A stretch of DNA of 21,469 nt from a virus. Location of the stretch: positions 1 to 21,469 of the IMG/VR virus record IMGVR_UViG_3300025141_000917; one strand, 5' to 3'. The notes under the pieces were generated by a model. The model was not told the origin of the DNA and searched no databases. It worked only from the letters and a program-made list of their open reading frames with translations. The position numbers were made by a program, and so were the translations under genes. Of this stretch, positions 1,179 through 21,469 are shown piece by piece (the first letter of the stretch is position 1; each line of letters starts with the position of its first letter).

Positions 1179-2957
1179 ATGTCTATTGTACAGAAATTAA
1201 CAGAAGGCATCGTTAATCGTGACCTTTCTTCAGAAGGCGCTGCTCTCATTGCAAAGTGGGAACAGACCGGTCTTTTGGAGGGTCTTGGTTCCGATGATTC
1301 TAAGAACGGTATGGCTCGATTGCTTGAAAATCAGGCAAAAGAGCTGCTCCGTGAGGCCAGTAGTATGGCCGTTGGTGGAGATGTTGAGGGCTTTGCTGCC
1401 GTCGCGTTCCCGCTCGTTCGCCGTGTATTCGGCTCCCTGATCGCTAATGAACTCGTTAGCGTTCAGCCGATGAGTCTCCCCTCGGGACTTATCTTCTTCC
1501 TCGACTTCACCTATGGCGGTGTTGTTCAGGATACTAGTAGTGCCCGTCTCGGATTCGAGGTTGGTAAATCAGTGTATGGTGGTGGAGCAGTTGCGAGCCA
1601 GATCACCGGCGGTGTAAACCTGTCCGGTCATGATGGCGAAGATGCTGCTGGTGCGTATAACTTACGTAACGGCTATTCTTCTCCGACGGGAAGTGGGATT
1701 GCAACGACTCCCGCATGCGCTATCTCTGGTAACATTGATGGTGGGGGCGCTGTTGGTGACAACGCGCTTTCCAATGGTTGGACATCCGCCATTGGTGGAG
1801 ACGGCCTTTCGGCACAGTATATCAGTGCTCAGATTCTCAAGTATGATCCGGATCTTACGTCCGGTTCGAGTTTCGCAGTTCTGACACAGGATATGTCTGG
1901 TAACCAGTTTAACTACGACGATCTAGTCGGCCTCGACCTTGTGTTCACGGGTACGGACGCTACTGACGGCAACGTCGTTTGCGTACGCCGCCTGTCATCG
2001 CTGAGTCGTTCTGCTGATCTTTCGACCGTGTCTGACACCGTCGTTCGAATCGTTGCGGTTGGAACAGGTTCCGCGGCTGCCATCGCGGCTGCTGTGGATA
2101 ACGCTACCATTACGTGTCCTATCGTGGATAACTTCCAGGGTAACACGACGGGTAATCCGATTGGTGCGGTCCTGCCGACAACCACATGGGGACTGGAGAA
2201 TAACCAGAACATCCCCGAGATCGACATCAAGGTCGATTCCGTGGCCGTCACTGCCATGACCAAGAAGCTCAAGGCCAAGTGGACCCCAGAGTTAGGACAG
2301 GATCTTAACGCTTACCACAACCTTGACGCTGAGGTTGAGCTGACTCAGATTCTTTCTGAGCAGATTGCTCTTGAAATTGATCAGGAGATCCTTGAGGACC
2401 TCGTTAAGGGTTCTTCGGCCGGTGTTCGTTACTGGTCGCGCAACCCGGGCGATTTCCTTAATCGTACAACTGGTGCTGCTAACGCTGCGCCGGAGTTCAC
2501 CGGTAACGTGTCGGAGTGGTATGAGACCCTCGTTGAGACCATCAACGATGTCTCTGCTCTGATCCACCGTAAGACTCTGCGTGGTGCCGCTAACTTTGTG
2601 GTGTGTTCACCTGAAGTTGCTAACCTGCTTGAGTTCACTGCTGGCTTCCGTGCCAACGTGACTGCAGATAGCGACCGTGGTGACATTGGTGCCGTTAAGG
2701 TTGGTTCGCTTTCGAAGAAGTTCGACGTTCTCGTCGATCCTTACTTCCCGCGTAACATCATCCTTGTTGGACGACGCGGAAGTAGCTTCCTTGAGAGTGG
2801 CTATGTGTATGCACCTTATGTGCCGCTGCAGACCACACCTACGATCTTCGGTGTTGAAGACTTCGTGCCTCGCAAGGGCGTGATGACCCGATACGCCAAG
2901 AAGATGGTGCGTCCTGATATGTATGGTTTAGTTGTCATTAAGGCTCTGAACGAATAA
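1179..2957 (+). CDS. 23: Major capsid protein, gp23-like
   Basis: 592 residues (T4 gp23 has 521). Hallmarks of the T4 capsid family are FPLVRRVFGSLIANELVSVQ followed by PMSLPSG at about residues 77-103, and near the C-terminus YVYAPYVPLQTTPTIFG and RKGVMTRYAKKMV. It forms the HK97-fold hexamers of the head shell. A likely maturation site is LLRE/A at residues 59/60, close to the T4 gp23 cleavage after Glu65; the gp21-type protease itself would lie outside the window. Residues about 130-320 are rich in Gly, Ala, Ser and Asp and look like an insertion domain on the outer face; this is an inference. Codon use is more uniform than in the neighbours, with many GGT, CGT, GTT and AAC codons, as expected for the most abundant protein. 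A strong RBS precedes it and a hairpin terminator follows. Confidence 0.93.
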   Translation: MSIVQKLTEGIVNRDLSSEGAALIAKWEQTGLLEGLGSDDSKNGMARLLENQAKELLREASSMAVGGDVEGFAAVAFPLVRRVFGSLIANELVSVQPMSLPSGLIFFLDFTYGGVVQDTSSARLGFEVGKSVYGGGAVASQITGGVNLSGHDGEDAAGAYNLRNGYSSPTGSGIATTPACAISGNIDGGGAVGDNALSNGWTSAIGGDGLSAQYISAQILKYDPDLTSGSSFAVLTQDMSGNQFNYDDLVGLDLVFTGTDATDGNVVCVRRLSSLSRSADLSTVSDTVVRIVAVGTGSAAAIAAAVDNATITCPIVDNFQGNTTGNPIGAVLPTTTWGLENNQNIPEIDIKVDSVAVTAMTKKLKAKWTPELGQDLNAYHNLDAEVELTQILSEQIALEIDQEILEDLVKGSSAGVRYWSRNPGDFLNRTTGAANAAPEFTGNVSEWYETLVETINDVSALIHRKTLRGAANFVVCSPEVANLLEFTAGFRANVTADSDRGDIGAVKVGSLSKKFDVLVDPYFPRNIILVGRRGSSFLESGYVYAPYVPLQTTPTIFGVEDFVPRKGVMTRYAKKMVRPDMYGLVVIKALNE

Positions 2958-8283: not shown

Positions 8284-8943
8284 ATGCCAAACATGTTCTG
8301 GAGTCAAGCCGCGGCAGAGCCGAAAAGACAACATAGATTTTTATTGGAGCTGCCCCTTTTAGGAGTTGCAACCGGAGGAGTGACGGGCCCATACGAGAAG
8401 TATCTGGCCAAGACGGTTTCCAAGCCTTCTTACACTCTAGGCGTGACAGAGCACAAGTTCCTTGGCAACACTTTTCATTATCCCGGCGCTGTTACGTGGG
8501 ACGAGGTTTCTGCAACACTTGTAAACTCTATTAATCCCAACGGAGATGAGATTCTTTATGAGGCTCTCTATGCATGCGGTTACCATGATCCCGAAGATCT
8601 AGAAGGATTTTTCTTGAACACTGGAAACAGTTCTCCCGGCACCCCCAACAAGGTTAATTCCTTGGGCGCACTCGGAAAGGTTCAGATTACTGAACTAAAC
8701 GGAGAAGGTCTTGAAATCGACCGCTGGGTTCTTAACAATGCTTTCATTACAAGCGTTAAATTTGGTGATTTAGATTATAGTGGTGAAGATTTACTTAATA
8801 TTGATCTGACTTTCAGGTATGATTGGGCTACGTATCAGACATTAACCGACTACGTCCCCGGCATGACTGGAGACGCACTGAGTGATTCTAACAATGATCC
8901 AATGCCTATAGCTCCCCGCGTAGGCGCCAGAGGGTCGTCGTAG
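8284..8943 (+). CDS. 19: Tail tube protein, gp19-like
   Basis: 219 residues (T4 gp19 has 163). The N-terminal RHRFLLELPLL-type strand (residues 15-26) and the block at about residues 133-183, with KVQITELNGEGLEIDRW, ITSVKFGDLDYSGEDL and NIDLTFRYDWA, match the tail-tube family. The latter pattern, 'W.l..afi..v.fg.ldys.edl..i.lt.ryDwA', is characteristic. Hexameric rings stack on the tape measure to make the inner tube through which DNA passes. It follows the sheath gene as in T4 (18 then 19). The spacer of 66 nt carries a promoter-like element and the RBS AGGAG. The C-terminal tail after residue 185 is longer than in T4 and is Gly/Asp/Pro-rich. Confidence 0.9.
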   Translation: MPNMFWSQAAAEPKRQHRFLLELPLLGVATGGVTGPYEKYLAKTVSKPSYTLGVTEHKFLGNTFHYPGAVTWDEVSATLVNSINPNGDEILYEALYACGYHDPEDLEGFFLNTGNSSPGTPNKVNSLGALGKVQITELNGEGLEIDRWVLNNAFITSVKFGDLDYSGEDLLNIDLTFRYDWATYQTLTDYVPGMTGDALSDSNNDPMPIAPRVGARGSS

Positions 8944-8974: not shown

Positions 8975-9838
8975 GTGAGTAGAAGAAATAACTTGGAGCG
9001 GCTCGGTGCCGCTGATCAAGATGCACCCACCCCTCCAACGGCGGTTACGCAGCAAGATACGAGCGATATATTTTCGTTCATAACTCCCACAGAGTTTGTT
9101 GACCTCCCCAGTAAGGGGTTGCTGTATCCCGAAGGCCACGCCCTATATCAGACATCGACGGTTGAAATTCGTCATATGACGGCAAAGGAAGAGGATATTT
9201 TAACCTCTGAATCGCTGATCAAGAAGGGGGTTGCACTCGATAGACTAGTACACTCGATTGTGGTTGATAAAAAGATAAGACCAGAAGATCTTCTAATTGG
9301 TGACAAAAATGCTCTGCTGGTCGCAGCCCGCGTGACAGGCTTTGGAAACCTTTATGAGACCAAGATCACTTGTCCCTCGTGTACTAAAGTAACAGACGTC
9401 TCCCTCGACCTTGAGGACCTACAAACTAAAGACTTCGAAGAGCTTCCTGAAAATGTTACCACCACAGATCAGGGAACCTATGTAATCACCCTTCCGGATT
9501 TTAATAATTTAGAAGTAGAGGTGCGACTGCTTACGGGACGCCATGAAAAGTTCCTTATGCAGCAGCGCGAGAAGCGCCGGAAGCTTAAGCTGCCGGACAC
9601 TAATATTACAGACCAATTAACGGCTATTATTGCCAGAGTAAATGAAATTACAGATCCAGCTCTCCTAGCTCAGTTTACTGAGCAGGTGCCAACCCGCGTT
9701 TCTCGACAGATTCGTGCTATTTACGAAGACCTCGTTCCGGATTTAGATATGACGTTTGGCTTTGAGTGTGATAATTGTGGCCACGTGGGTAAGGTAGGCA
9801 TGCCGATTTCGGCAGACTTTTTTTGGCCTGACACATAA
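8975..9838 (+). CDS. 26: Baseplate hub / tail assembly chaperone, gp26-like (T4_baseplate family), zero-frame product
   Basis: 287 residues with a GTG start; AAGGTG at 8965-8970 is the RBS. The order of motifs matches the family that includes T4 gp26: LPSKGLLYPEGH at about residue 44, then EIRHMTAKEEDILTSESLIK, LLIGDKNALLVAARV, and a four-cysteine zinc-type motif made of C133/C136 (CPSC) and C265/C268 (CDNC). The ending ADFFWPDT is also familiar for this family. In T4 gp26 is needed for hub assembly; its place directly before the tape measure fits a tail assembly chaperone. The codons for FFW create a run of seven T at 9818-9824, and a start-less reading frame continues in the +1 frame to 10022 (separate entry). 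The GTG start suggests modest expression. Confidence 0.8.
   Translation: MSRRNNLERLGAADQDAPTPPTAVTQQDTSDIFSFITPTEFVDLPSKGLLYPEGHALYQTSTVEIRHMTAKEEDILTSESLIKKGVALDRLVHSIVVDKKIRPEDLLIGDKNALLVAARVTGFGNLYETKITCPSCTKVTDVSLDLEDLQTKDFEELPENVTTTDQGTYVITLPDFNNLEVEVRLLTGRHEKFLMQQREKRRKLKLPDTNITDQLTAIIARVNEITDPALLAQFTEQVPTRVSRQIRAIYEDLVPDLDMTFGFECDNCGHVGKVGMPISADFFWPDT
9801..9814 (+). other. Small hairpin just upstream of the T7 slippery run
   Basis: TGCCG (9801-9805) and CGGCA (9810-9814) can pair as a 5-bp perfect stem with an ATTT loop, ending 3 nt before the T run at 9818. It lies inside the gp26-like coding region. Hairpins behind a slippery site can alter frameshift efficiency; whether this one does is inference. 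Confidence 0.35.
9818..9824 (+). promoter_or_regulatory. Candidate programmed ribosomal frameshift site (+1 or -2)
   Basis: Seven T in a row, read as TTT TTT TGG in the gp26-like frame. A +1 slip lets the tRNA on TTT at 9821-9823 re-pair with TTT at 9822-9824, so the next codon is GGC at 9825. A -2 slip (re-pairing at 9819-9821) reaches the same frame with one more Phe. The frame thus entered has no stop until 10020-10022. A sequencing error in the homopolymer (true T6) would instead make a simple in-frame fusion. Confidence 0.6.
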
Positions 9839-10445: not shown

Positions 10446-13421
10446 ATGTCTGTTTCTGACGCACAAGTTGAAAACCTTATAAAATCATTAGAAAACATAG
10501 CGTCCAAAATGGAAGCCGCCACCGGTGACGCTGCCGGAGGCGCCGGAGGCCGCGCTGCTGATGGGGATGTTTATGGGGATCCCACAGACTCCGCAAAACA
10601 GGCCGAAAGAGCCGCCAAAGCATTTAGGGAGCTCAACAAAGACGTCGAAGTTTCTGGCAGCCAGATGACCGAGTACACCAGAATCCTCGCGGATATGCAG
10701 AACGGTGTCGCCGGCGCGGCCGATGAGATGGCAGACTTTCAGTCGACCCTCAAAAAAGGTGGCGCGAAGTTTGATAAAGCATACGACAATATGTTTAAGC
10801 TCACGGGCGCCGCCGATCAGCTAAACAGTGTGCTCCCCACCAGTAAGCAAGAAATGCTAACATTTGGTACATCCCTGATGAAGAGCGTGAAGAGTGGTGA
10901 GATCTTCGTTAGCATGGCGAAGAAGCTCATCGGCACCATGGTCAATCTTGCTGTCCAAACTGACGCAGCCACCGCCGGCTTTATGAGGATGACGGGCGCC
11001 TTTTCTCAAGGCAACAACCTTACTAATGAATATGCTAAAGTAATTGGGGGAGCCGAGCGCCAACTAGCGCACTTAGGAGCTACTGAGGAAGACGTAGGAA
11101 AAGCAATGGGCTCCCTGTATACCGGATACCAGAACTTTACTAATCTTTCGAAGGACCAGAAAAAGGCACTTACTGCCCAAACCGCTGTCATGGACAAGTT
11201 GGGGATCAGCACGGGCCTTACTGCGCAAATATTCGACACCGCCACCAAATCACTGGGGTTCACTGATGATCAGCTTATAGGCCTCACCGAGGGACTTCAT
11301 GCCACCGCACAGAGTCTGGGCAAATCCACGGCACAGGTCGTAGAAGATTTCGGCGTTGTGTCAAAACAGTTGGCATTTTATGGAACAGACGTCGTTGGCG
11401 TGTTCGAAGACATGCAGAAACAATCAAAGGCAACTGGTTTGTCTATGGGCGAGCTTCTTAGCATTTCAGGAGAAGCTTACGACACATTTGATGGTGCCGC
11501 AGAGAAGGTGGGACGACTGAACGCTATCTTGGGTGGCCCGTACTTAAACTCAATTGATATGCTAAACGCATCCGAATCTGAACGCCTCGAAATGATTACA
11601 GCATCAATGGATGCCAGCGGCCAGATGTTCTCTGAATTAGGAAAGTATGAACAGAAAGCAATTGCGTCTGCTCTGGGAGTTGAGGTTGATGTTGCGAGGC
11701 GCATGTTTGGAGAACTCTCTGCCGCAGAAGAGATGGAGATCAGGCAACAAGAAAAGATGGCGGAAACAGCAGCTAAGGCCCAAAAGGTGATAGATAAGCT
11801 GACGAATGCTTTTTATTCTTTGGTTGTCCGCATCGATTGGCTTGTTGGGATCATGGTGAAGCCAATTGATTGGTTCTCCTCATTCGCCGGATGGCTGAAC
11901 GATGGCTCCAGCGCTATGAAGACATTCGCCAAGTGGCTTCTTAACATTGGGGTCCTCTTCGGCGGACTGTGGGGAATGCTCAAGACTGGAGGCAAAGCGC
12001 TTACTAAGGCCGGCAACGCTGCGGGTTCTCTAGGCCGCGGGATGAGAACTGTAGGCAAGGTTGCCACGAATGTTTTTGGCAAAGGATCCCCAGTTGGCAG
12101 TGCCGTCAACACCGTAAGCAGCGTCAGTACTAAGATGGAGAAGGCCGGATCCATGGCAACGAGAATGGGCCGCTTTATGACAAAGGCAGCGAATTCAATC
12201 GCGAAGCCGTTCCGAATTATGGGCAATGCCATACGTCACCCAATTCAGGCCTTTAAAAGACTTACCGATTTGGCCAAATCACTCCCGAAGTTCCTGCGCA
12301 ATATAAAAATGCCCTCACTAAAAATGCCGGCATGGCTGTCTAATCTTTCCAAATTTAAGATGCCTTCTTTTAAAATGCCCTCCTTAAAGATGCCGGGACT
12401 GTCTAAAGCTAGTGCTGCACTCAAGAACGTGGCGATGGGTTTTAATAAAATTAAAGATACCGTGTCCAAATTTAAGATGCCTTCTTTTAAAATGCCCGGC
12501 CTAGGTAAATCCACGAAGCTTCTCAAGGGCTTCGGCAAAGTACTGGGAGGGTTTGCAAAAGTATTGTATCCGTTAGAACTAGCGTGGCACACAATTATGT
12601 CAATTAAGGATAATTTCAACCTTTTTGGTGACTCTCTCAAAGACGGCGAAGGATTTATAGAAAAAATCCTCGGTGGGATCGGGGCTCTTTTAATCACAAT
12701 CGGCGATGCAGCAGCCCGGGCAACGGATTCTCTGGTTAACTTCGGAGTGTGGATTGCCAACATATTTCTCCCAGAAAATTGGGAGCTGCCAGAACTGAAT
12801 CTCGCAGGCATGATACAAGATTCTCTAGCAAATCTAAATTTTGACTTTATTAATGAAACTTTCGCCTATATGGGCCAGATGATGATTGATGGGATTCTTT
12901 CTATAGTTCCTGGCTGGGCGAAAAAGTGGCTTGGAATCGGCGCCGATGCTAAGACAGAGAAAGCAGAGATAGATGCTGTACAGGGCGCCGAAAACCGCCG
13001 AGCCGAGCGCGAAGGTCGCGAGCCCAAGAAAATCACAGCAGAAGATGTCGATGATGTTGTGATCACTGCCAGCGGAAAAGTGATTAAGCCCAATTCGAAA
13101 GACACCATAATTGCTGCAAAGCCCGGCGGCCCTCTTCTTAAGTCCCAAGAGGAACAGCAAGATGGTCTTGGTCAAATGGCGTCTCTGGCGGCAAAAGCCA
13201 TGAATCCACTCGGCAGTCTGTTCTCTGGAGTTACTGGCGCTGTACAGGACCAGATATTTGGTAAGAAGGGGGGCCCCGAAGGTAAAGGCACCGGTGACGG
13301 TACCCCCAATGTTAAGGTAGATGTGAGTGTTAAAATTGGTGAAAAACAATTAACCGACATCATTATAGAGGCGCTATCTTCACCGGAGGCCGGAAAGGCG
13401 ATATCGCCGTTCCTAAACTAG
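10446..13421 (+). CDS. Tail tape measure protein (functional equivalent of gp29)
   Basis: 991 residues, by far the longest helical protein of the tail block, and placed straight after the chaperone region as tape measures are. Features in order: a charged N-terminus with an Ala/Gly-rich linker (about residues 20-45), long alpha-helical stretches rich in Ala, Lys, Gln and Met, a hydrophobic segment LLNIGVLFGGLWGMLK at about 498-513, a basic Gly/Ala/Lys-rich zone, a KMP repeat at residues 621-684, further hydrophobic segments (ILGGIGALLITIG near 741; FAYMGQMMIDGILSIVPGW near 806), and a soluble C-terminal part ending SPEAGKAISPFLN. Its length should set tail length: at the usual 1.5 Angstrom per residue, roughly 150 nm if all residues count, longer than T4. 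No lysozyme or peptidase motif was seen. Homology to T4 gp29 is not visible by eye, so the call rests on architecture and context. Confidence 0.85.
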   Translation: MSVSDAQVENLIKSLENIASKMEAATGDAAGGAGGRAADGDVYGDPTDSAKQAERAAKAFRELNKDVEVSGSQMTEYTRILADMQNGVAGAADEMADFQSTLKKGGAKFDKAYDNMFKLTGAADQLNSVLPTSKQEMLTFGTSLMKSVKSGEIFVSMAKKLIGTMVNLAVQTDAATAGFMRMTGAFSQGNNLTNEYAKVIGGAERQLAHLGATEEDVGKAMGSLYTGYQNFTNLSKDQKKALTAQTAVMDKLGISTGLTAQIFDTATKSLGFTDDQLIGLTEGLHATAQSLGKSTAQVVEDFGVVSKQLAFYGTDVVGVFEDMQKQSKATGLSMGELLSISGEAYDTFDGAAEKVGRLNAILGGPYLNSIDMLNASESERLEMITASMDASGQMFSELGKYEQKAIASALGVEVDVARRMFGELSAAEEMEIRQQEKMAETAAKAQKVIDKLTNAFYSLVVRIDWLVGIMVKPIDWFSSFAGWLNDGSSAMKTFAKWLLNIGVLFGGLWGMLKTGGKALTKAGNAAGSLGRGMRTVGKVATNVFGKGSPVGSAVNTVSSVSTKMEKAGSMATRMGRFMTKAANSIAKPFRIMGNAIRHPIQAFKRLTDLAKSLPKFLRNIKMPSLKMPAWLSNLSKFKMPSFKMPSLKMPGLSKASAALKNVAMGFNKIKDTVSKFKMPSFKMPGLGKSTKLLKGFGKVLGGFAKVLYPLELAWHTIMSIKDNFNLFGDSLKDGEGFIEKILGGIGALLITIGDAAARATDSLVNFGVWIANIFLPENWELPELNLAGMIQDSLANLNFDFINETFAYMGQMMIDGILSIVPGWAKKWLGIGADAKTEKAEIDAVQGAENRRAEREGREPKKITAEDVDDVVITASGKVIKPNSKDTIIAAKPGGPLLKSQEEQQDGLGQMASLAAKAMNPLGSLFSGVTGAVQDQIFGKKGGPEGKGTGDGTPNVKVDVSVKIGEKQLTDIIIEALSSPEAGKAISPFLN
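12348..12497 (+). repeat. Perfect 33-bp direct repeat inside the tape measure gene
   Basis: The 33 bases at 12348-12380 recur without change at 12465-12497. The copies are 117 nt apart, exactly 39 codons, so unequal recombination between them would delete or add 39 codons in frame. They encode the strongest part of the KMP repeat (SKFKMPSFKMP), which has seven KMP units at residues 621-684, partly with a five-residue period (KMPSF, KMPSL, KMPGL). Confidence 0.9.
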
Positions 13422-13433
13422 AGGTATAAAAAT

Positions 13434-14291
13434 ATGTCCGCACCCGCAGTAAAACAAGGAGATCCTGGATTAATTGGAGATTCATTCTTTCAGGTTCACA
13501 TAACACACTTACCTACGAATAGAACAATCAGTTTCAAAGGCTGGGTAACAGATTTTTCTGATGCGTTCAATTCTACTTGGAATTCGGAAACTGTTTATGG
13601 ACGAATGGATCCACTGGTAACCTTTCAAAACACTGGACGATCAATTACTCTGGGTTTTGATGTCCCCGCGGCCGATGGCCTTGAGGCTGCTGACAATCTT
13701 GCACGCCTAAATCGTCTCGCACAGTTTCTGTACCCCCTGTACTCTTCGGGACCCGATCGCACTATGCAAAATACACTACAGGGCGGCCCCCTTATCGGGC
13801 TTAAGTGGACAAACATGATCGGAAATGCCCATAACGGCGAAAGACTTATCGGGTACTTGTCAGGGTTTACATATTCACCGCAGCTGGAGCATGGCGCATT
13901 TTTCCAAACAGGAGCGTCTACAGATGTGGTCGACACTACCACCACGGAAGGCAAGCAGGAGGGATATGCAACTCGGGACGTTTCAACCTCCTCCGAGCGC
14001 GCTTATGTTCCAAAAGTAGTGAGTGTAAGTTTGGACTTTACTGTCTTACATACCCATTTGACGGGTTGGTATAAGGGAGAGGGCGGCTATACGTTCGGAA
14101 ATTCTGATGTGGATGCTAAGTTTCCCAATGCTCACTTCGTAGTGAACACAGAAACACAATCCCAGCAGGCGGACGTTGGCGGCGGCGACGACGATAGTTA
14201 TGAAAATGTGGGAGAGATACAAAAGAGTAATGAGACTGAAGTACTCTTGCCCAGCGCCGCGATCCGCGCGCTCACCGGGAAGGGGACATAA
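13434..14291 (+). CDS. Baseplate tube cap / initiator-like protein (gp48/gp54-type)
   Basis: 285 residues. The N-terminal two thirds carries a pattern seen in myovirus baseplate proteins: ISFKGWVTDFSDAFNSTWNS, then ETVYGRMDPLVTFQNTGRSI and LGFDVPAADGLEAADNLARL followed by LAQFLYPLYS and a Pro-Leu-Ile-Gly-Leu-Lys strand. The C-terminal part, about residues 160-285, has VSLDFTVLHTHLTGW, then polar and acidic sequence with GGGDDD. T4 proteins gp48 and gp54 sit on top of the hub and nucleate the tube and sheath; a protein at this place in the operon, between tape measure and gp53-like, fits such a role. The assignment to gp48, gp54 or a LysM-linked tube-initiator family is not settled by eye. RBS AGAGG precedes the ATG, 12 nt after the tape measure stop. 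Confidence 0.5.
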   Translation: MSAPAVKQGDPGLIGDSFFQVHITHLPTNRTISFKGWVTDFSDAFNSTWNSETVYGRMDPLVTFQNTGRSITLGFDVPAADGLEAADNLARLNRLAQFLYPLYSSGPDRTMQNTLQGGPLIGLKWTNMIGNAHNGERLIGYLSGFTYSPQLEHGAFFQTGASTDVVDTTTTEGKQEGYATRDVSTSSERAYVPKVVSVSLDFTVLHTHLTGWYKGEGGYTFGNSDVDAKFPNAHFVVNTETQSQQADVGGGDDDSYENVGEIQKSNETEVLLPSAAIRALTGKGT

Positions 14292-14294
14292 GTA

Positions 14295-14636
14295 ATGCCA
14301 AAAAGATACGATAATCGAAGAATTCTTTTGAACAGAGAACCCCTTTATGACAATTATTTTGAAGAACGACACGTTAAATCAATTCGTCAGTACAACTCAG
14401 CAACTATGAGATATCCTACGGCAGATGAATTAAGTCGAATGACCAAAAAAAAGCACATTTGGGGTACCGGTGATCGTTATTATAAGGTCGCTATCGAAAA
14501 CTATGGTTCAGCACAGTATTGGTGGGTGATTGCCTTGTTCAATAAAAAGCCCACGGAAGCTGATATTAAGAATGGCGAAGTAATTTGGATTCCTTTGCCT
14601 TTAGAAAATATACTGAGACTGTATAATAAGGTTTAA
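14295..14636 (+). CDS. 53: LysM-like baseplate wedge protein, gp53-like
   Basis: 113 residues. Residues 56-100 form a LysM-type module: WGTGDRYYKVAIENYGSAQY, then WWVIALFN and PTEADIKNGEVIWIPLP. The order 'GDr.y.vA..nYGs.qYWWvIa.fN..pteaDi..Ge.i.IP' is typical of T4 gp53 and of similar LysM adaptor proteins of other contractile tails. Gp53 links the wedges to the hub in the baseplate. It is shorter than T4 gp53 (196 residues), keeping mainly the LysM part with a basic N-terminal arm (residues 1-50). It starts 3 nt after the preceding stop and ends 3 nt before the next start, so the three baseplate genes are tightly coupled. Confidence 0.75.
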   Translation: MPKRYDNRRILLNREPLYDNYFEERHVKSIRQYNSATMRYPTADELSRMTKKKHIWGTGDRYYKVAIENYGSAQYWWVIALFNKKPTEADIKNGEVIWIPLPLENILRLYNKV

Positions 14637-14639
14637 CAC

Positions 14640-17600
14640 ATGTCAGTCAGCGAATTCATATGGGGTAATACCGCCTATTATAAAATCGAAATCCATGGCC
14701 CTGTTGTCCAGTCGGACGATGAGTCGGGCGACTCTGGCATTCCAAACACCCGAACTCGCGCAAGAGAAACTGCACTTGAACAACTTCGCTATCTACTAGC
14801 GCCCAACTACTTGTGGGCCGCGTCCCACATATGGTATCCGGAAGAGTTGGAGATTGTAGAGGAGGATTCCGGAGCCATGGCCCAATCGACGGGCCGGTAT
14901 AATGTTGTTTATCGCATCTCTAAGGAAGCTGCAGATGCTGCCGCCCAGCAACCTCATGTTCTTGCGCTCCCCGATGGCGACCCTCGCCCCACGGATACAG
15001 CGCCTGCCGAAGAGGTTGTAACTGGGCAAGAGATAGCTGATGCGTGCCCTGACCGTGCAGCGTTTGCTATTCACGAAGATAAATATAAAGTTACGGTTGT
15101 TCTTAATGATGTTGATTTAGATATAGACTCCACCTTGAACATCGCCAGGATGGAAGCTGAGTTCGAATCGGCTCGCCAAATTGCTGCCAATTTTAATTCT
15201 TCTATTTCGAGCGACCAGATAAGATATCAAAGCGAGGCTCCTTCGGGACACTACGTCGGCCCCCCAGGCCAGCCCGGCGTACGCATTCAAGGGCTTGGTG
15301 CCATCATGCGCGAGGTACCTGAGGGTAGTGGCACACAGTATCAATGTATATCTGGCACGGGACAGGTCGCCTCAACTGGGAAGTTCATTGGATCTTACAG
15401 TGCGCCGGTTTCCGGAGTAACAAATGTAAGTGTGGTGCCCGGCGGGGATGAGGCGGCCGCCGGCGAGGACCCAAGCGAGACTGGACCTGCAGGCGACACC
15501 TCTCAAGATGCGCCCCCCGCCGCACCGCTTGGGGCTGGCGACGCAAACCCCGACGCTCCGCCTGGCGTAGAAGAGCGGGAGGGTAATTATGTAATTACTG
15601 TTATAGTACCGGAGGGCGAAGATCCACAGGAAGTAGCCAAAGACGAGCTAGCCAAATACGTTACTGATTCTTCCCGAGCCCGAGCATCCAATATCAGCGT
15701 TGAGGGCGATCTCGCACAACTGGACTCTTCCCCAGCCGCATCCGGCGATGTTAGTGGGAAAAAAATCCTCATTATGGGAGACAGCCAGTGGCACGGCACC
15801 GCCATGGGCCGTGCAGTAAAAGAGAGCCTTGAGGCCAAGGGGGCCGAGGTCCGCACTCTATGGCAGTACGGAAAAGGCGCTGCTGTCGGAGCGAGTCATT
15901 TCGGGGTTTCTGTCGCCGGCAGCACCGGCAATACAACAGTTAATCCCACTGGACTATTGGGCTCCATGCTCACCAGTTTTCAGCCCAACATCGTTATTAT
16001 AGGTCTAGGCGGAAATGACTCATACGGGTGGAACAATAAAAAGGATAAATATAAAAAAGTATTAGAGGGATGGATTACCGCATTTAAGAACGCTGGCGTC
16101 TCAGAGGTTCGTTGGCTTGGCCCCTCCTTCGCTACGAATATCATGAGCAACGGCCGCTCTTATGATACGATTCGTCAAAAGATACGTGAACATCAGCAGG
16201 AATATTTGTCATCTTCCCCAGTATCCGGTATTCAAACCACATGGACTGATACGGTTTCTATCACTAGAGACCTCGAACGTAAAGAAGATGGGGTGCATTA
16301 TGTAAGCGGCGCCCGTGGCTATGGCGGGTGGGGTACCATCATGACCTCTGATTCAGGTCCGCTAGCGGATCTGATGACAGGCTCTGCGCCCGGCGCCGAG
16401 CGCGTTCAGTTCGCAGTTCCGGCCGGCAACGTGCGGGTGACATCTCAACCCCCCAAGGGCGGAACGGGGTACGAGCCACCCCCAGCTGGAGCCTTCTCGC
16501 CCGGCAAAGAAGGAGAGAAGGGCGAAAAAACTCCGGCAGAAATTAACCTAGAACCTCTTGATTTTCAGTGTGTTTTAATGCAAAACATCCGCCTACTAGC
16601 GGCAGAGCACAAATCCGCGAAATACGATCATACTTGCCGCCTTACTAGTGATAATCCGGGCAATGTGATGTCAATCATCAATCATGGAAATATGACAAAC
16701 GAAGTAAGAGAATTCCTCAGTCTTTGCCCCGAGGTGTATGGAGCACTCGTTCCTTTTCTTAAGATTTGGCGCGTTGAGTATAATGATAAGGGGAAAGTGT
16801 TGAAGAATTCTGACGGCACCCCCAAAGAAAAGGAACTCCGCATTCCTAATTTTGTTGATGAACGAGATGTAGATGACATCCTCGCCGGCAAGAAGAGTAG
16901 AATTTCTGGCGCCGGAATCAAGAGCTTTTCTTGGGAGCTAAAAGGCGTTCAGCCTGCAGAGGTTGACAATAACATTACGGCCAAGTTAGATATATATTTC
17001 CAGTCGGTCGGAGATTTCTTTGGTGGCGCCACACAAGCCGGTGGTAATGTTCCTAATTTCTTAGATTTAATAATTAACTCACCAGCGGTACGAAAGGTAA
17101 AAAACAAAAGCGGCATAGGAAGCCAGTCGCCCAGCAGCAAGCCTCGCAGGTGTGGCACGGGAGCCGCAGCAGCTGGTCAATACGATGGAGCAAATTTTAG
17201 AATTAAAGTTTGTGCGGGCTGGGCCGTACCCGAGGATTTGGAGAGTATGTTCCCCACGACCCCTCCGGCTAAGCTTAAGCTTTTAAGGGAGGCAGTCATG
17301 GCTACTCGGTCTTCGTTGTTTTTGCAGCAGGTGCGGCACAATATTACATTTAATGAAAATGGGTCAATGCTGTTGAGCATCGACTATCATGCCGCTCTCA
17401 CTGGGATGCTCCGTGGCTCTACTGCGGATATATTTGCTGACGGTAAAAATCTTGATGAGATCACGAAGCTCCGCGACGAAAAGAAGGAGCTGGCCAGGCA
17501 ATCGAAAGACCCAGATGCCACCGAGAGCGAGAAAGAGAAACTCGGGGAAGACACCGACCTCTTACTTGAAAAGATTGACGAACTTGAACAGGCCGACAAA

Positions 17601-19088
17601 CTAGAAAAATATCGCAAGCTTCTTAAGGGCCTTTTCGAGAGCGACAAAATTATGATGCTGCAGCCCCCGAGTGAAGAGGTCTATACAAAGGGTGTTGATG
17701 ACATGACTCACGAAGAAAGGGTTGAGTTTGCTACCACACGACAGAGTAAGACTTATCTTACGGAGAACATGGGACTGCGGAAAGGGTCCTTTGAGTCAGA
17801 CACCTTAGAGGCCCTAGAGGACGAGGACTCTTTAGACGATGCCGCAAAGAAGTCTGATAAAAAAGCCAAAAAGAAGTCCAAGAAGGCCACGAAGAAGGCC
17901 AAGAAGGCGAAAAAGACTGTTGACATTCCATTTATGTATTTGGGAGATATCATTGACAACGTAATAGAACAAATTAAGCTTAACAATGCAGAGGAGCTTA
18001 ATTTTAAATTTTTCATGTCTGAGGTAGAGTTGATCGATCCTTTGGTGGCGTACCAAGTTAAAAACTTTGGCGACTTTGCGGCGTGCGGGAATGTAAAAGA
18101 TGCGGTTGTTTTAAGTGCAATGGAGGCCGCCACGCCGGGCGTCACTGTTATGGGATCAGAAGGACTTCTGTTGCAGATGAGCATCGGGGATATCCCCATA
18201 TCTTTAGACGCATTTCAGCAGTGGTTTACAGATAAAGTAATTAAAAAGAGCCTCGATAAATATTATTTTTTAAATTTTATCAAAGACATTGCGTCACAAC
18301 TTATCTCTAATGCCCTTAAGGCTCGGTGTTATGGCAAAAAATATAAATTCTTTCAACGATTCGACGCACAGCCCATTAATTTAGGCCAAGCAAGTTCGTT
18401 GAAATCAAAGACGCGCATAGGGGCCAAAAGTTTAGCCAACTACAAGAGAAAGCTTACATGTGAATCCTCTGCTACCGAAAGCCTTCTGGCTATTGTTTTG
18501 ATGTCAACTGACACTAAGCCCAAATCTTTACAGGGAGACTTTGAGCAGGATCTAGAAAACGGCATCTATCATAATTATATTGGCTCTTCGTGCGGATTAG
18601 TTAAAAAGATTAATTTTAATCGAGAGGACCAGCCCTATCTTCGGGAGTCTAAAATACAAAAACAGGGCGCCTTAGGAGCAGCCCAGTTGAGAGAATTATA
18701 CTCTGTTAATATTGATTTGGTGGGCAACAACCTTTACAGGAATGGGTCCTATATTTATGTTAGCCCTCTCTTGTTGGATACTACGATGGAGGAATTAGAG
18801 TTTTTGGGGCTGCACGGATATTATCTGGTGACGAGCGTGGGATCTGTGCTTACTGAGTCCTCTTTCACGACCAATCTGAAAGCCCTTCACGAAGGTGTGA
18901 AGTTCCCCAACACCAAGCTGGGAACGGATTCGCAACTCCCCGCCCCACCGGCTCCCTCGACTAATCCATTCGATCACGAGGCCGGCAGCGTCGAAATGCT
19001 TAATGCTGCCCGTGCTCTCTCGGGCAAGCCTCCACTCACTCAAGAGGAAGCGGAAGCGGCCGCAGAGAAGCTGATGGAGTTGGTCTAA
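14640..19088 (+). CDS. Giant baseplate hub-like protein with an embedded SGNH hydrolase domain
   Basis: 1482 residues. N-terminal part (1-265): alpha/beta units such as KYKVTVVLNDVDLDIDST (from about 148). Residues about 265-312: Pro/Ala/Asp linker. Residues about 372-575: SGNH/GDSL esterase domain with KILIMGDSQWHG (nucleophile Ser382), IVIIGLGGND (Asn459) and DGVHYVS (Asp550, His553), so Ser, Asp and His are all present. After a second Pro/Gly linker, the C-terminal half (from about 640) looks structural: PEVYGALVPFLKIWRVEYND, VRHNITFNENGSMLLSIDYH, a charged coiled coil near 950-990, a lysine-rich tract at 1070-1092, then SLDAFQQWFTDKVIKKSL and a hydrophobic helix. The ITFNENGSMLLSIDY strand pattern resembles baseplate hub proteins. 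By position it takes the place of the T4 hub (gp27/gp5), with an esterase instead of a lysozyme. The substrate (acetylated surface polysaccharide or peptidoglycan, or lipid) is unknown. SGNH call strong, hub call moderate. Confidence 0.7.
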   Translation: MSVSEFIWGNTAYYKIEIHGPVVQSDDESGDSGIPNTRTRARETALEQLRYLLAPNYLWAASHIWYPEELEIVEEDSGAMAQSTGRYNVVYRISKEAADAAAQQPHVLALPDGDPRPTDTAPAEEVVTGQEIADACPDRAAFAIHEDKYKVTVVLNDVDLDIDSTLNIARMEAEFESARQIAANFNSSISSDQIRYQSEAPSGHYVGPPGQPGVRIQGLGAIMREVPEGSGTQYQCISGTGQVASTGKFIGSYSAPVSGVTNVSVVPGGDEAAAGEDPSETGPAGDTSQDAPPAAPLGAGDANPDAPPGVEEREGNYVITVIVPEGEDPQEVAKDELAKYVTDSSRARASNISVEGDLAQLDSSPAASGDVSGKKILIMGDSQWHGTAMGRAVKESLEAKGAEVRTLWQYGKGAAVGASHFGVSVAGSTGNTTVNPTGLLGSMLTSFQPNIVIIGLGGNDSYGWNNKKDKYKKVLEGWITAFKNAGVSEVRWLGPSFATNIMSNGRSYDTIRQKIREHQQEYLSSSPVSGIQTTWTDTVSITRDLERKEDGVHYVSGARGYGGWGTIMTSDSGPLADLMTGSAPGAERVQFAVPAGNVRVTSQPPKGGTGYEPPPAGAFSPGKEGEKGEKTPAEINLEPLDFQCVLMQNIRLLAAEHKSAKYDHTCRLTSDNPGNVMSIINHGNMTNEVREFLSLCPEVYGALVPFLKIWRVEYNDKGKVLKNSDGTPKEKELRIPNFVDERDVDDILAGKKSRISGAGIKSFSWELKGVQPAEVDNNITAKLDIYFQSVGDFFGGATQAGGNVPNFLDLIINSPAVRKVKNKSGIGSQSPSSKPRRCGTGAAAAGQYDGANFRIKVCAGWAVPEDLESMFPTTPPAKLKLLREAVMATRSSLFLQQVRHNITFNENGSMLLSIDYHAALTGMLRGSTADIFADGKNLDEITKLRDEKKELARQSKDPDATESEKEKLGEDTDLLLEKIDELEQADKLEKYRKLLKGLFESDKIMMLQPPSEEVYTKGVDDMTHEERVEFATTRQSKTYLTENMGLRKGSFESDTLEALEDEDSLDDAAKKSDKKAKKKSKKATKKAKKAKKTVDIPFMYLGDIIDNVIEQIKLNNAEELNFKFFMSEVELIDPLVAYQVKNFGDFAACGNVKDAVVLSAMEAATPGVTVMGSEGLLLQMSIGDIPISLDAFQQWFTDKVIKKSLDKYYFLNFIKDIASQLISNALKARCYGKKYKFFQRFDAQPINLGQASSLKSKTRIGAKSLANYKRKLTCESSATESLLAIVLMSTDTKPKSLQGDFEQDLENGIYHNYIGSSCGLVKKINFNREDQPYLRESKIQKQGALGAAQLRELYSVNIDLVGNNLYRNGSYIYVSPLLLDTTMEELEFLGLHGYYLVTSVGSVLTESSFTTNLKALHEGVKFPNTKLGTDSQLPAPPAPSTNPFDHEAGSVEMLNAARALSGKPPLTQEEAEAAAEKLMELV

Positions 19089-20414: not shown

Positions 20415-21469
20415 ATGTCGTTTCAAGTGTTGGATTCTAAATCTGACTGCATTGGGTATTTTGCCGATAATATCATAACCTCAACATCTCAGCTACCAGA
20501 GAGCGGTAGCACGTGGGAGTATTCTCCCCATTTACGTGGTGAGCTGTATGAGCTGGGGCGTATATACAGTGAAGGGGCAACACTTTCAGAGGTATGCCCC
20601 GAAGAATTACGCGAGGAATGGGCAGAGATCAAGAAAACTCTGCGAGCTTGCCTTAAGGCGTTTAATACGGCGAACGTCTCGCTGCATAAAAACTGCCTAT
20701 ATGATGTTCTTCCGGAATATTTTTTGTTCCGGTACCTCAATGTTAAAAATCACATTACCGACCACGCCCTGAGGACGCTTCAGAGGCCTGCAAACTACGA
20801 GCCCATGTATAACCTCGTCAAGATGCTCTCGGACATCAGAGAGCGCACCCTAGACATCGACATAGCCCCTATTGGACACCTTCTTAGTTCGGTACGGGGG
20901 ATGAACTTCCACCGGACGCTTCAAACCGTAAGACACGTATGCGATTATAATCCATGGGGAACCATAACGGGTCGACTGGCGACTAATCCCAACAGCTTCC
21001 CTATCTTAACAATGAACAAGGAGTTCCGTGCGTGTGTTAAACCAAGGAACGACTGGTTGCTTGAGCTAGACTTTAACGCAGCTGAGTTGCGAACGCTGTT
21101 GGCCCTCGCTGGCGTTGAACAACCCCAAAACGACATTCACGACTGGAATGTCAAGAACATTTTCGACGGCAAGCTAACCCGCGCCGAGGCCAAGGTTAAG
21201 ACATTCGCATGGTTGTATTCTAGTAAGGAAAACAAGGACTTAGAGCGCCTATATAACAAGGATTTGGTACGGAATAGGTACTGGGATGGCTTAAAAATTA
21301 CGACGGATTATGGTAGAATAATAGAGAACGTGGACGAGCATCATGCGCTCAACTACATCGTTCAAAGCACCACAATTGATATGGTGCACGAGCAGGCTTA
21401 CAAAGTCTACGAGCTTTTGAAGGGGAGAAAAAGCCACATCGCATTTCTTATTCACGACGCTGTGTATAT
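20415..21469 (+). CDS. Family A DNA polymerase, polymerase domain only (3' end outside window)
   Basis: 351 codons visible. The RBS AAGGAG (20404-20409) overlaps the previous stop, 5 nt before the ATG. Motifs align with Taq/Klenow: TGRLATNPNSFPIL (TGRLSS region), motif A LELDFNAAELR (Asp219, Glu224, Arg226), motif B RAEAKVKTFAWLYS (Arg256, Lys260, Phe264, Tyr268 matching Taq R659, K663, F667, Y671), a Q-containing helix NYIVQSTTIDMVHEQ, and motif C LIHDAVY (His347, Asp348). Only about 218 residues precede motif A, enough for a thumb but not for a 3'-5' exonuclease, so proofreading, if any, must come from another gene, as I recall for phage RM378. Motif C has Ala where Pol I has Glu883, and the glycines after Phe264 and Tyr268 are Ala and Ser. 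Motifs A-B and B-C lie closer than in Taq, so the fingers are compact. The two metal-binding aspartates are kept, so activity is likely. Confidence 0.88.
   Translation, partial: MSFQVLDSKSDCIGYFADNIITSTSQLPESGSTWEYSPHLRGELYELGRIYSEGATLSEVCPEELREEWAEIKKTLRACLKAFNTANVSLHKNCLYDVLPEYFLFRYLNVKNHITDHALRTLQRPANYEPMYNLVKMLSDIRERTLDIDIAPIGHLLSSVRGMNFHRTLQTVRHVCDYNPWGTITGRLATNPNSFPILTMNKEFRACVKPRNDWLLELDFNAAELRTLLALAGVEQPQNDIHDWNVKNIFDGKLTRAEAKVKTFAWLYSSKENKDLERLYNKDLVRNRYWDGLKITTDYGRIIENVDEHHALNYIVQSTTIDMVHEQAYKVYELLKGRKSHIAFLIHDAVY

Follow-up and report, generated by a model that had tools for sequence, protein, structure and literature searches.

Why would a T4-superfamily phage carry an SGNH/GDSL hydrolase-like domain inside a large baseplate protein, and on what might it act? 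The window, by which we mean the whole stretch of 21,469 nucleotides analyzed here (IMG/VR record IMGVR_UViG_3300025141_000917), contains a tail gene cluster from such a phage, with capsid, sheath, tube, gp26-like and gp53-like genes (Table 1), from a source that we take to be marine, going by the IMG/VR sample numbers. A sequence-only reading had placed the domain in a baseplate hub, flanked by GC-rich Pro/Gly linkers, as a module suggested to have been gained by recombination and perhaps used in place of, or before, peptidoglycan cleavage. The explanation that we favor, with a probability of roughly 0.45 for the whole, is a PatB/Ape1-like SGNH enzyme acting on O-acetyl esters and carried on an interchangeable arm of a conserved T4-superfamily baseplate protein.

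Table 1. Features of the window and of the 1,482-residue protein.
Feature	Position	Strand	Basis
gp23-type major capsid protein (T4 superfamily)	1179..2957	+	PF07068, E 4.3e-73
Tail sheath protein, 958 aa	5341..8217	+	family match
Tail tube protein	8284..8943	+	phrog_4542
T4 gp26-like baseplate protein	8975..9838	+	PF12322, 58.3 bits
991-aa protein in tape-measure position	10446..13421	+	position and length only
Tail protein, 285 aa, between tape measure and gp53-like gene	13434..14291	+	no family; weak match
gp53-like baseplate wedge protein, 113 aa; synteny marker	14295..14636	+	phrog_7145, E 1.7e-9
1,482-aa baseplate protein, hub candidate, bearer of the SGNH domain	14640..19088	+	3' of gp53-like gene and tail genes
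N-terminal region, residues 1-270	14640..15449	+	identity by part
Pro/Gly/Ala-rich linker, residues 271-314, GC 0.73	15450..15581	+	composition
Short conserved segment, residues 315-356, between first linker and SGNH domain	15582..15707	+	
SGNH domain, PatB/DUF459-Ape1 branch (probable), residues 373-583	15756..16388	+	motifs, profiles, predicted fold
Block I GDS, residues 380-382, putative nucleophile Ser382	15777..15785	+	motif and conservation
Block III GGND, residues 457-460, Asn459	16008..16019	+	motif and conservation
Block V DGVH, residues 550-553, Asp550 and His553	16287..16298	+	aligns to PatB DGIHF
Pro/Gly-rich linker, residues 584-640, GC 0.63	16389..16559	+	composition
Conserved core, residues 639-1425, starts P-x-D-x-Q-C	16554..18914	+	common to 28 relatives

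Two features of the surrounding cluster may be recorded here. The sheath is about twice as long as the 496-position phrog_23 profile, whose match spans residues 8 to 956, so that this sheath must contain large extra parts. Downstream, the tail cluster is followed by a 429-aa gene and a family A DNA polymerase gene (20415-21467, cut by the window end), an order found also in contigs L002 and L037.

Within the 1,482-aa protein, the motif set was located as first described, with the same residue numbering; one further GDS, at residue 30, stands isolated from it. Both linkers are indeed GC-rich compared with the SGNH part (0.51) and the core (0.45), but a 42-residue segment separates the first of them from the domain. 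Their GC content is close to what their peptides would give under the codon use of the window (0.67 for residues 271 to 314 and 0.59 for residues 584 to 640), and GC3 shows no rise over the SGNH part. Linker composition is thus mostly set by Pro/Gly/Ala-rich peptides, and we discarded it as a sign of recent transfer. Residues 1-135, 136-270 and 315-356 had looked by eye like repeats common to L034 and L037, a resemblance that profile tests did not support. The core contains a Lys-rich stretch (17847-17925, approximately residues 1070 to 1095) that is little conserved among relatives.

Fold, family and constraint of the SGNH domain

The domain was modeled with AlphaFold2 from a four-row alignment, giving an SGNH alpha/beta/alpha fold with a mean pLDDT of 76 and a pTM of 0.81; model residues 185 to 195 (549 to 559 of the protein), which hold the Asp and His of DGVH, have a pLDDT of <50. 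The best VIA-align match was Campylobacter PatB (Z 15.9, rmsd 2.9, 179 aligned residues), and of the seven rows scoring within 1 Z of this match, six were PatB, peptidoglycan O-acetylesterase or Cj0610c (few distinct proteins, some entered repeatedly), the seventh being a Nostoc GDSL lipase. In the Foldseek ranking, EstL5 came first, ahead of PatB in second place, and the first 50 hits included several nucleotide-sugar enzymes with lower TM-scores. On this model, residues 373 to 583 almost certainly adopt the SGNH fold.

Family searches with residues 365 to 590 alone gave matches below the curated cut-offs of Lipase_GDSL_2 (E 3.5e-6; 28.1 bits, cut-off 32.9), Lipase_GDSL (E 1.6e-4) and DUF459 (PF04311; E 1.8e-4; 21.4 bits, cut-off 27.2). 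Other copies of the domain scored 23.1 (L002), 28.9 (L007) and 37.9 bits (L004) against DUF459; the L007 copy exceeded the cut-offs of both DUF459 and Lipase_GDSL, and a six-frame DUF459 search put 1 of 17 records above the cut-off. When the A2 profile was compared with PDB, four sequences had E values of <0.01, namely, two Ape1 and two PatB constructs (E 0.0034 to 0.0063; the name Ape1 is taken from the VIA-align list), followed by TesA at E 0.21, and the PatB alignment extended through the DGxHF block. DUF459 is described as the PatB family, the peptidoglycan O-acetyltransferases of Gram-negative bacteria, in a review whose main text does not use the word phage (PMC9487903). The matches point to a place in or near the PatB/Ape1 branch, the window copy being, by its score under the cut-off, a borderline candidate for PF04311. 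Bacterial loci among the matches look like TesA-type SGNH proteins and were set aside as no closer kin.

Ser382, Asn459, Asp550 and His553 are kept in all three close relatives, together with Gly411 and Gly413, the candidate oxyanion glycines of Block II, and a fourth, cut-off copy keeps GGND and the D..H pair. The SGNH domain of the window is 82% identical to that of L002 and 59% to that of L007, against 67 to 90% and 45 to 89%, respectively, for parts of the core. With pN/pS values of 0.15 to 0.37 and synonymous sites near saturation, the domain is, by its sequence variation, under purifying selection. Residues 136 to 270 (15045-15449) are 36% identical to L002 and 69% to L007, while the parts after them are closer to L002, a pattern by which this segment is judged to be a mosaic within the arm. 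Could the domain be catalytically idle, a glycan-binding or spacer module? The poorly modeled Asp/His loop would fit such a role; the serine, asparagine, aspartate, histidine and Block II glycines, invariant in four full copies at identities down to 59% and with near-saturated synonymous sites, make it improbable. We consider the domain very likely to be an active enzyme, as predicted from these residues and the fold.

An exchanged N-terminal arm on a constant core

Searches by tblastn against 50,697 phage records gave no match to the whole protein and, for the SGNH part alone, a best E value of 1. In IMG/VR, the SGNH part found three contigs and a core query added a further SGNH-bearing one (L007); the SGNH profile confirmed the domain in all four. 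The gp53-like neighbor as query gave 37 loci, in 34 of which the downstream ORF could be picked. The window protein was matched by 29 of these 34 ORFs, the other five being cut by the contig end. Three of the 29 (L031, L032 and L033, which correspond to contigs L002, L003 and L007) match it over nearly the full length, and the remaining 26 match only from residue 604 on, weakly so in the distant relative L067. Leaving out L067, 28 relatives share the core, whose start is marked by P-x-D-x-Q-C in 29/29 sequences, the window included.

The SGNH domain is present in 3 of these 28 relatives, all of them close kin of the window; in the rest, the front end is unrelated or nearly absent. The 28 arms of >50 aa (window included) fell into clusters of 16, 4 (SGNH), 2, 2, 2, 1 and 1, the last being the short arm of L035, while L036 has <20 residues N-terminal to the core. 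There are thus six long arm types without a BLAST link to one another, in addition to the short arm and the core-only L036. Four of the 28 arms, from the window and from its three kin, show the SGNH motifs in order. Pfam searches of 31 ORFs (near-copies left out, some ORFs cut) returned a GDSL family in four and DUF459 in one and nothing else, and Lipase_GDSL_2 was found in none of eight SGNH-free records searched whole. The idea that proteins of this type generally carry SGNH was therefore rejected. The commonest arm type (16/28, including L042, L045, L051 and L058; residues 1 to approximately 350-620) has no Pfam match.

A tree of the core was built from 23 rows, after removal of 12 sequences: five truncated ORFs, L067 and six that were near-copies or cut copies. 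On it, all SGNH bearers group together (support 100/100), and their sister group includes the core-only protein along with a short and a different arm; L040 and L042 have sister cores (98/98) with different arms. Because the cores of L031 and L032 are identical, the SGNH bearers amount to three independent sequences, window included, besides L004. There is hardly any doubt, as far as sequences can tell, that the N-terminal arm is interchangeable and the SGNH domain one of its forms. By the tree, the module was gained or kept once by the ancestor of the window clade and then constrained. Of the proposal of a gain by recombination, acquisition is borne out by the presence of the domain in 3/28 relatives and its single origin on the tree; the argument from GC content is not.

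Place in the baseplate and possible substrate

The core, of approximately 790 residues, would build the baseplate and is probably its hub ring, judging by gene position: in T4, gene 5 directly follows gene 53, and the 1,482-aa gene directly follows the gp53-like gene. Among named matches, Microcystis phage Mel-JY01 has the best-matching sheath (31.6%), and there too a gp53-like protein (95.6% by hhalign) is followed by a 671-aa hypothetical protein. Relative G005 has a second cluster with gp25, a 599-aa protein next to gp25 in the position of gp6 and further large baseplate genes, which leaves the hub to be filled and argues against a wedge or peripheral protein with its SGNH arm at the baseplate rim. 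That alternative, which we regard as unlikely, draws on the nearest assigned neighbor being a wedge protein (phrog_7145) and on the core having no detected homology to gp27, gp5 or any hub. The profile of A7, a 22-row core alignment, showed no link to PDB, NCBIfam or PHROGs and, against 12 whole records, matched only the two clade members, and hhalign showed none between the core and T4 gp27, T4 gp5 or two Mel-JY01 proteins, the 671-aa one included; at such divergence, failure of profile searches is compatible with gp27/gp5 kinship. Similarly, a three-row profile of the gp53-like protein did not match T4 gp53, and the core, folded from a three-row alignment, gave a failed model (pLDDT 31). Gp5_OB was found in 0/8 of the relatives' records, an uninformative result, since the search was silent in control genomes too. 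The hub claim accordingly keeps its support from gene order and lacks a sequence or profile link to a known hub. As for a side fibre or tailspike, with a conserved N-terminal anchor and a variable C-terminal enzyme, the layout is different: in 28/28 relatives, any arm present is N-terminal to the core.

Under our preferred reading, the arm, on flexible Pro/Gly linkers and exchanged between lineages, would reach the envelope during infection, where Ser382-His553-Asp550, with Asn459 and a Block II glycine, may strip O-acetyl groups from an envelope glycan, as the conserved residues and fold suggest. The favored substrate would be 6-O-acetyl-MurNAc of peptidoglycan, the weakest step, after which a tail-tip peptidase from the second cluster or host autolysins might open the wall. 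Peptidoglycan O-acetylation is described as blocking lysozymes and lytic transglycosylases (PMC6174289).

A candidate peptidase exists among the relatives. The second baseplate cluster of G005 encodes a 388-aa protein with a VanY-like (M15) C-terminus (22.0 bits, 24.9 in a six-frame search; cut-off 25). In L004, an SGNH ORF of 41% identity, with its 5' end cut, lies directly 5' of a VanY ORF (41 bits, above the cut-off), followed by ORFs of 347 and 1,823 aa. The VanY (through its N-terminal half), 347-aa and 1,823-aa ORFs match G005 proteins in the same order. The same SGNH family thus turns up in two settings, on the core protein and beside a peptidase gene. VanY matched in 2/17 records and had no match in the 21-kb fragment of the window; most records are short fragments, so that absence says little. 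Regarding this cluster, the 1,823-aa baseplate protein (L004:2974-8442) has an N-terminal peptidoglycan-binding domain (PF01471) and is a homologue of the 1,781-aa protein adjoining gp25 in G005; a run of genes of nucleotide-sugar type, named by look, lies beside the second cluster in G005 (L082:1358-3938).

Given the separate VanY-like (M15) peptidase in the second baseplate cluster of a relative, the SGNH domain would more probably assist wall cleavage than stand in for it. Of the two earlier options, action in place of cleavage is weakened by the G005 and L004 peptidases, and action before or alongside it fits better. M15 peptidases cut peptide, not glycan. Deacetylation therefore need not help them directly, which weakens a partnership and leaves peptidoglycan as the substrate at somewhat less than even odds. 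That a PatB-type enzyme on an interchangeable hub arm edits host peptidoglycan acetylation where the phage injects, in partnership with an M15 spike peptidase and as a virion-borne counter-measure to wall O-acetylation, is a more tentative proposal.

The arm could instead be a surface O-acetylesterase, deacetylating LPS O-antigen or capsule for recognition or disengagement and never acting on peptidoglycan. A tested SGNH esterase of a phage, Aristophanes tailspike gp41, was modeled on a peptidoglycan O-acetylesterase, yet deacetylates the K26 capsule (PMC8471582), so substrates cannot be read off an Ape1-like fold. Tail spikes or fibres account for several of the named BFVD fold matches, and the arm differs between lineages, as host-range parts do, with residues 136 to 270 a mosaic. 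Polarity is nevertheless opposite to that of a fibre, with the conserved part C-terminal and the variable part N-terminal, the SGNH domain is well conserved in the clade (59 to 82%), and, by sequence, PatB and Ape1 are its closest relatives with solved structures. On balance we think a purely surface-glycan role rather unlikely. If the preferred reading is true, a virion-borne editor of peptidoglycan O-acetylation would give the phage a direct answer to that block, and a tail-base protein with an exchanged front end and a constant core is a place to seek other unannotated phage envelope tools.

Comparison with known systems

The earlier view that phage SGNH esterases are better known from spikes and fibres is incomplete, since the domain is already described on hub-type proteins of Staphylococcus siphophages. 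The Tal proteins 80alpha gp59 and phi11 gp44 are reported to carry a C-terminal SGNH domain, a putative enzyme, behind a gp27-like N-terminal part (PMC7048315, PMC4876445), and a review counts phi11 gp44 among virion-associated lysins (PMC5380687). Like the window protein, these baseplate-tip proteins combine a structural part with an SGNH/GDSL domain, for which a role on the cell wall is suggested. They belong, however, to siphophages of a Gram-positive host, whereas in the window the domain lies N-terminal to a core without a shown gp27 link, in a contractile T4-superfamily phage.

PatB and Ape1, a peptidoglycan O-acetyltransferase and a peptidoglycan O-acetylesterase, respectively, provide the best PDB profile matches, top fold matches, the DUF459 match and a common DGxHF block. 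Unlike the phage domain, which lies within a tail protein and whose window copy scores below the DUF459 cut-off, they are bacterial proteins, and PatB acts together with the donor protein PatA, being described as a transferase that needs a donor and not as a hydrolase in vivo (PMC9487903). T4 gp5 likewise has a wall-type enzyme module in a baseplate protein encoded after gene 53, although its lysozyme is another enzyme class and the window core showed no link to gp5 in profile comparison. Aristophanes gp41 is, as described, also an SGNH O-acetylesterase carried by a phage, but on a tailspike with an N-terminal virion anchor, a C-terminal enzyme and a capsule substrate.

Literature searches on SGNH/GDSL with baseplate hubs, tail-associated lysins, myovirus baseplates and marine phage tails, with most subscription journals outside their scope, found, among the papers listed, no SGNH domain on a T4-superfamily baseplate protein. 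This comparison suggests that SGNH on hub-type phage proteins is already known, from Staphylococcus phages, and that the window protein differs from these in its T4-superfamily setting and the N-terminal placement of the domain.
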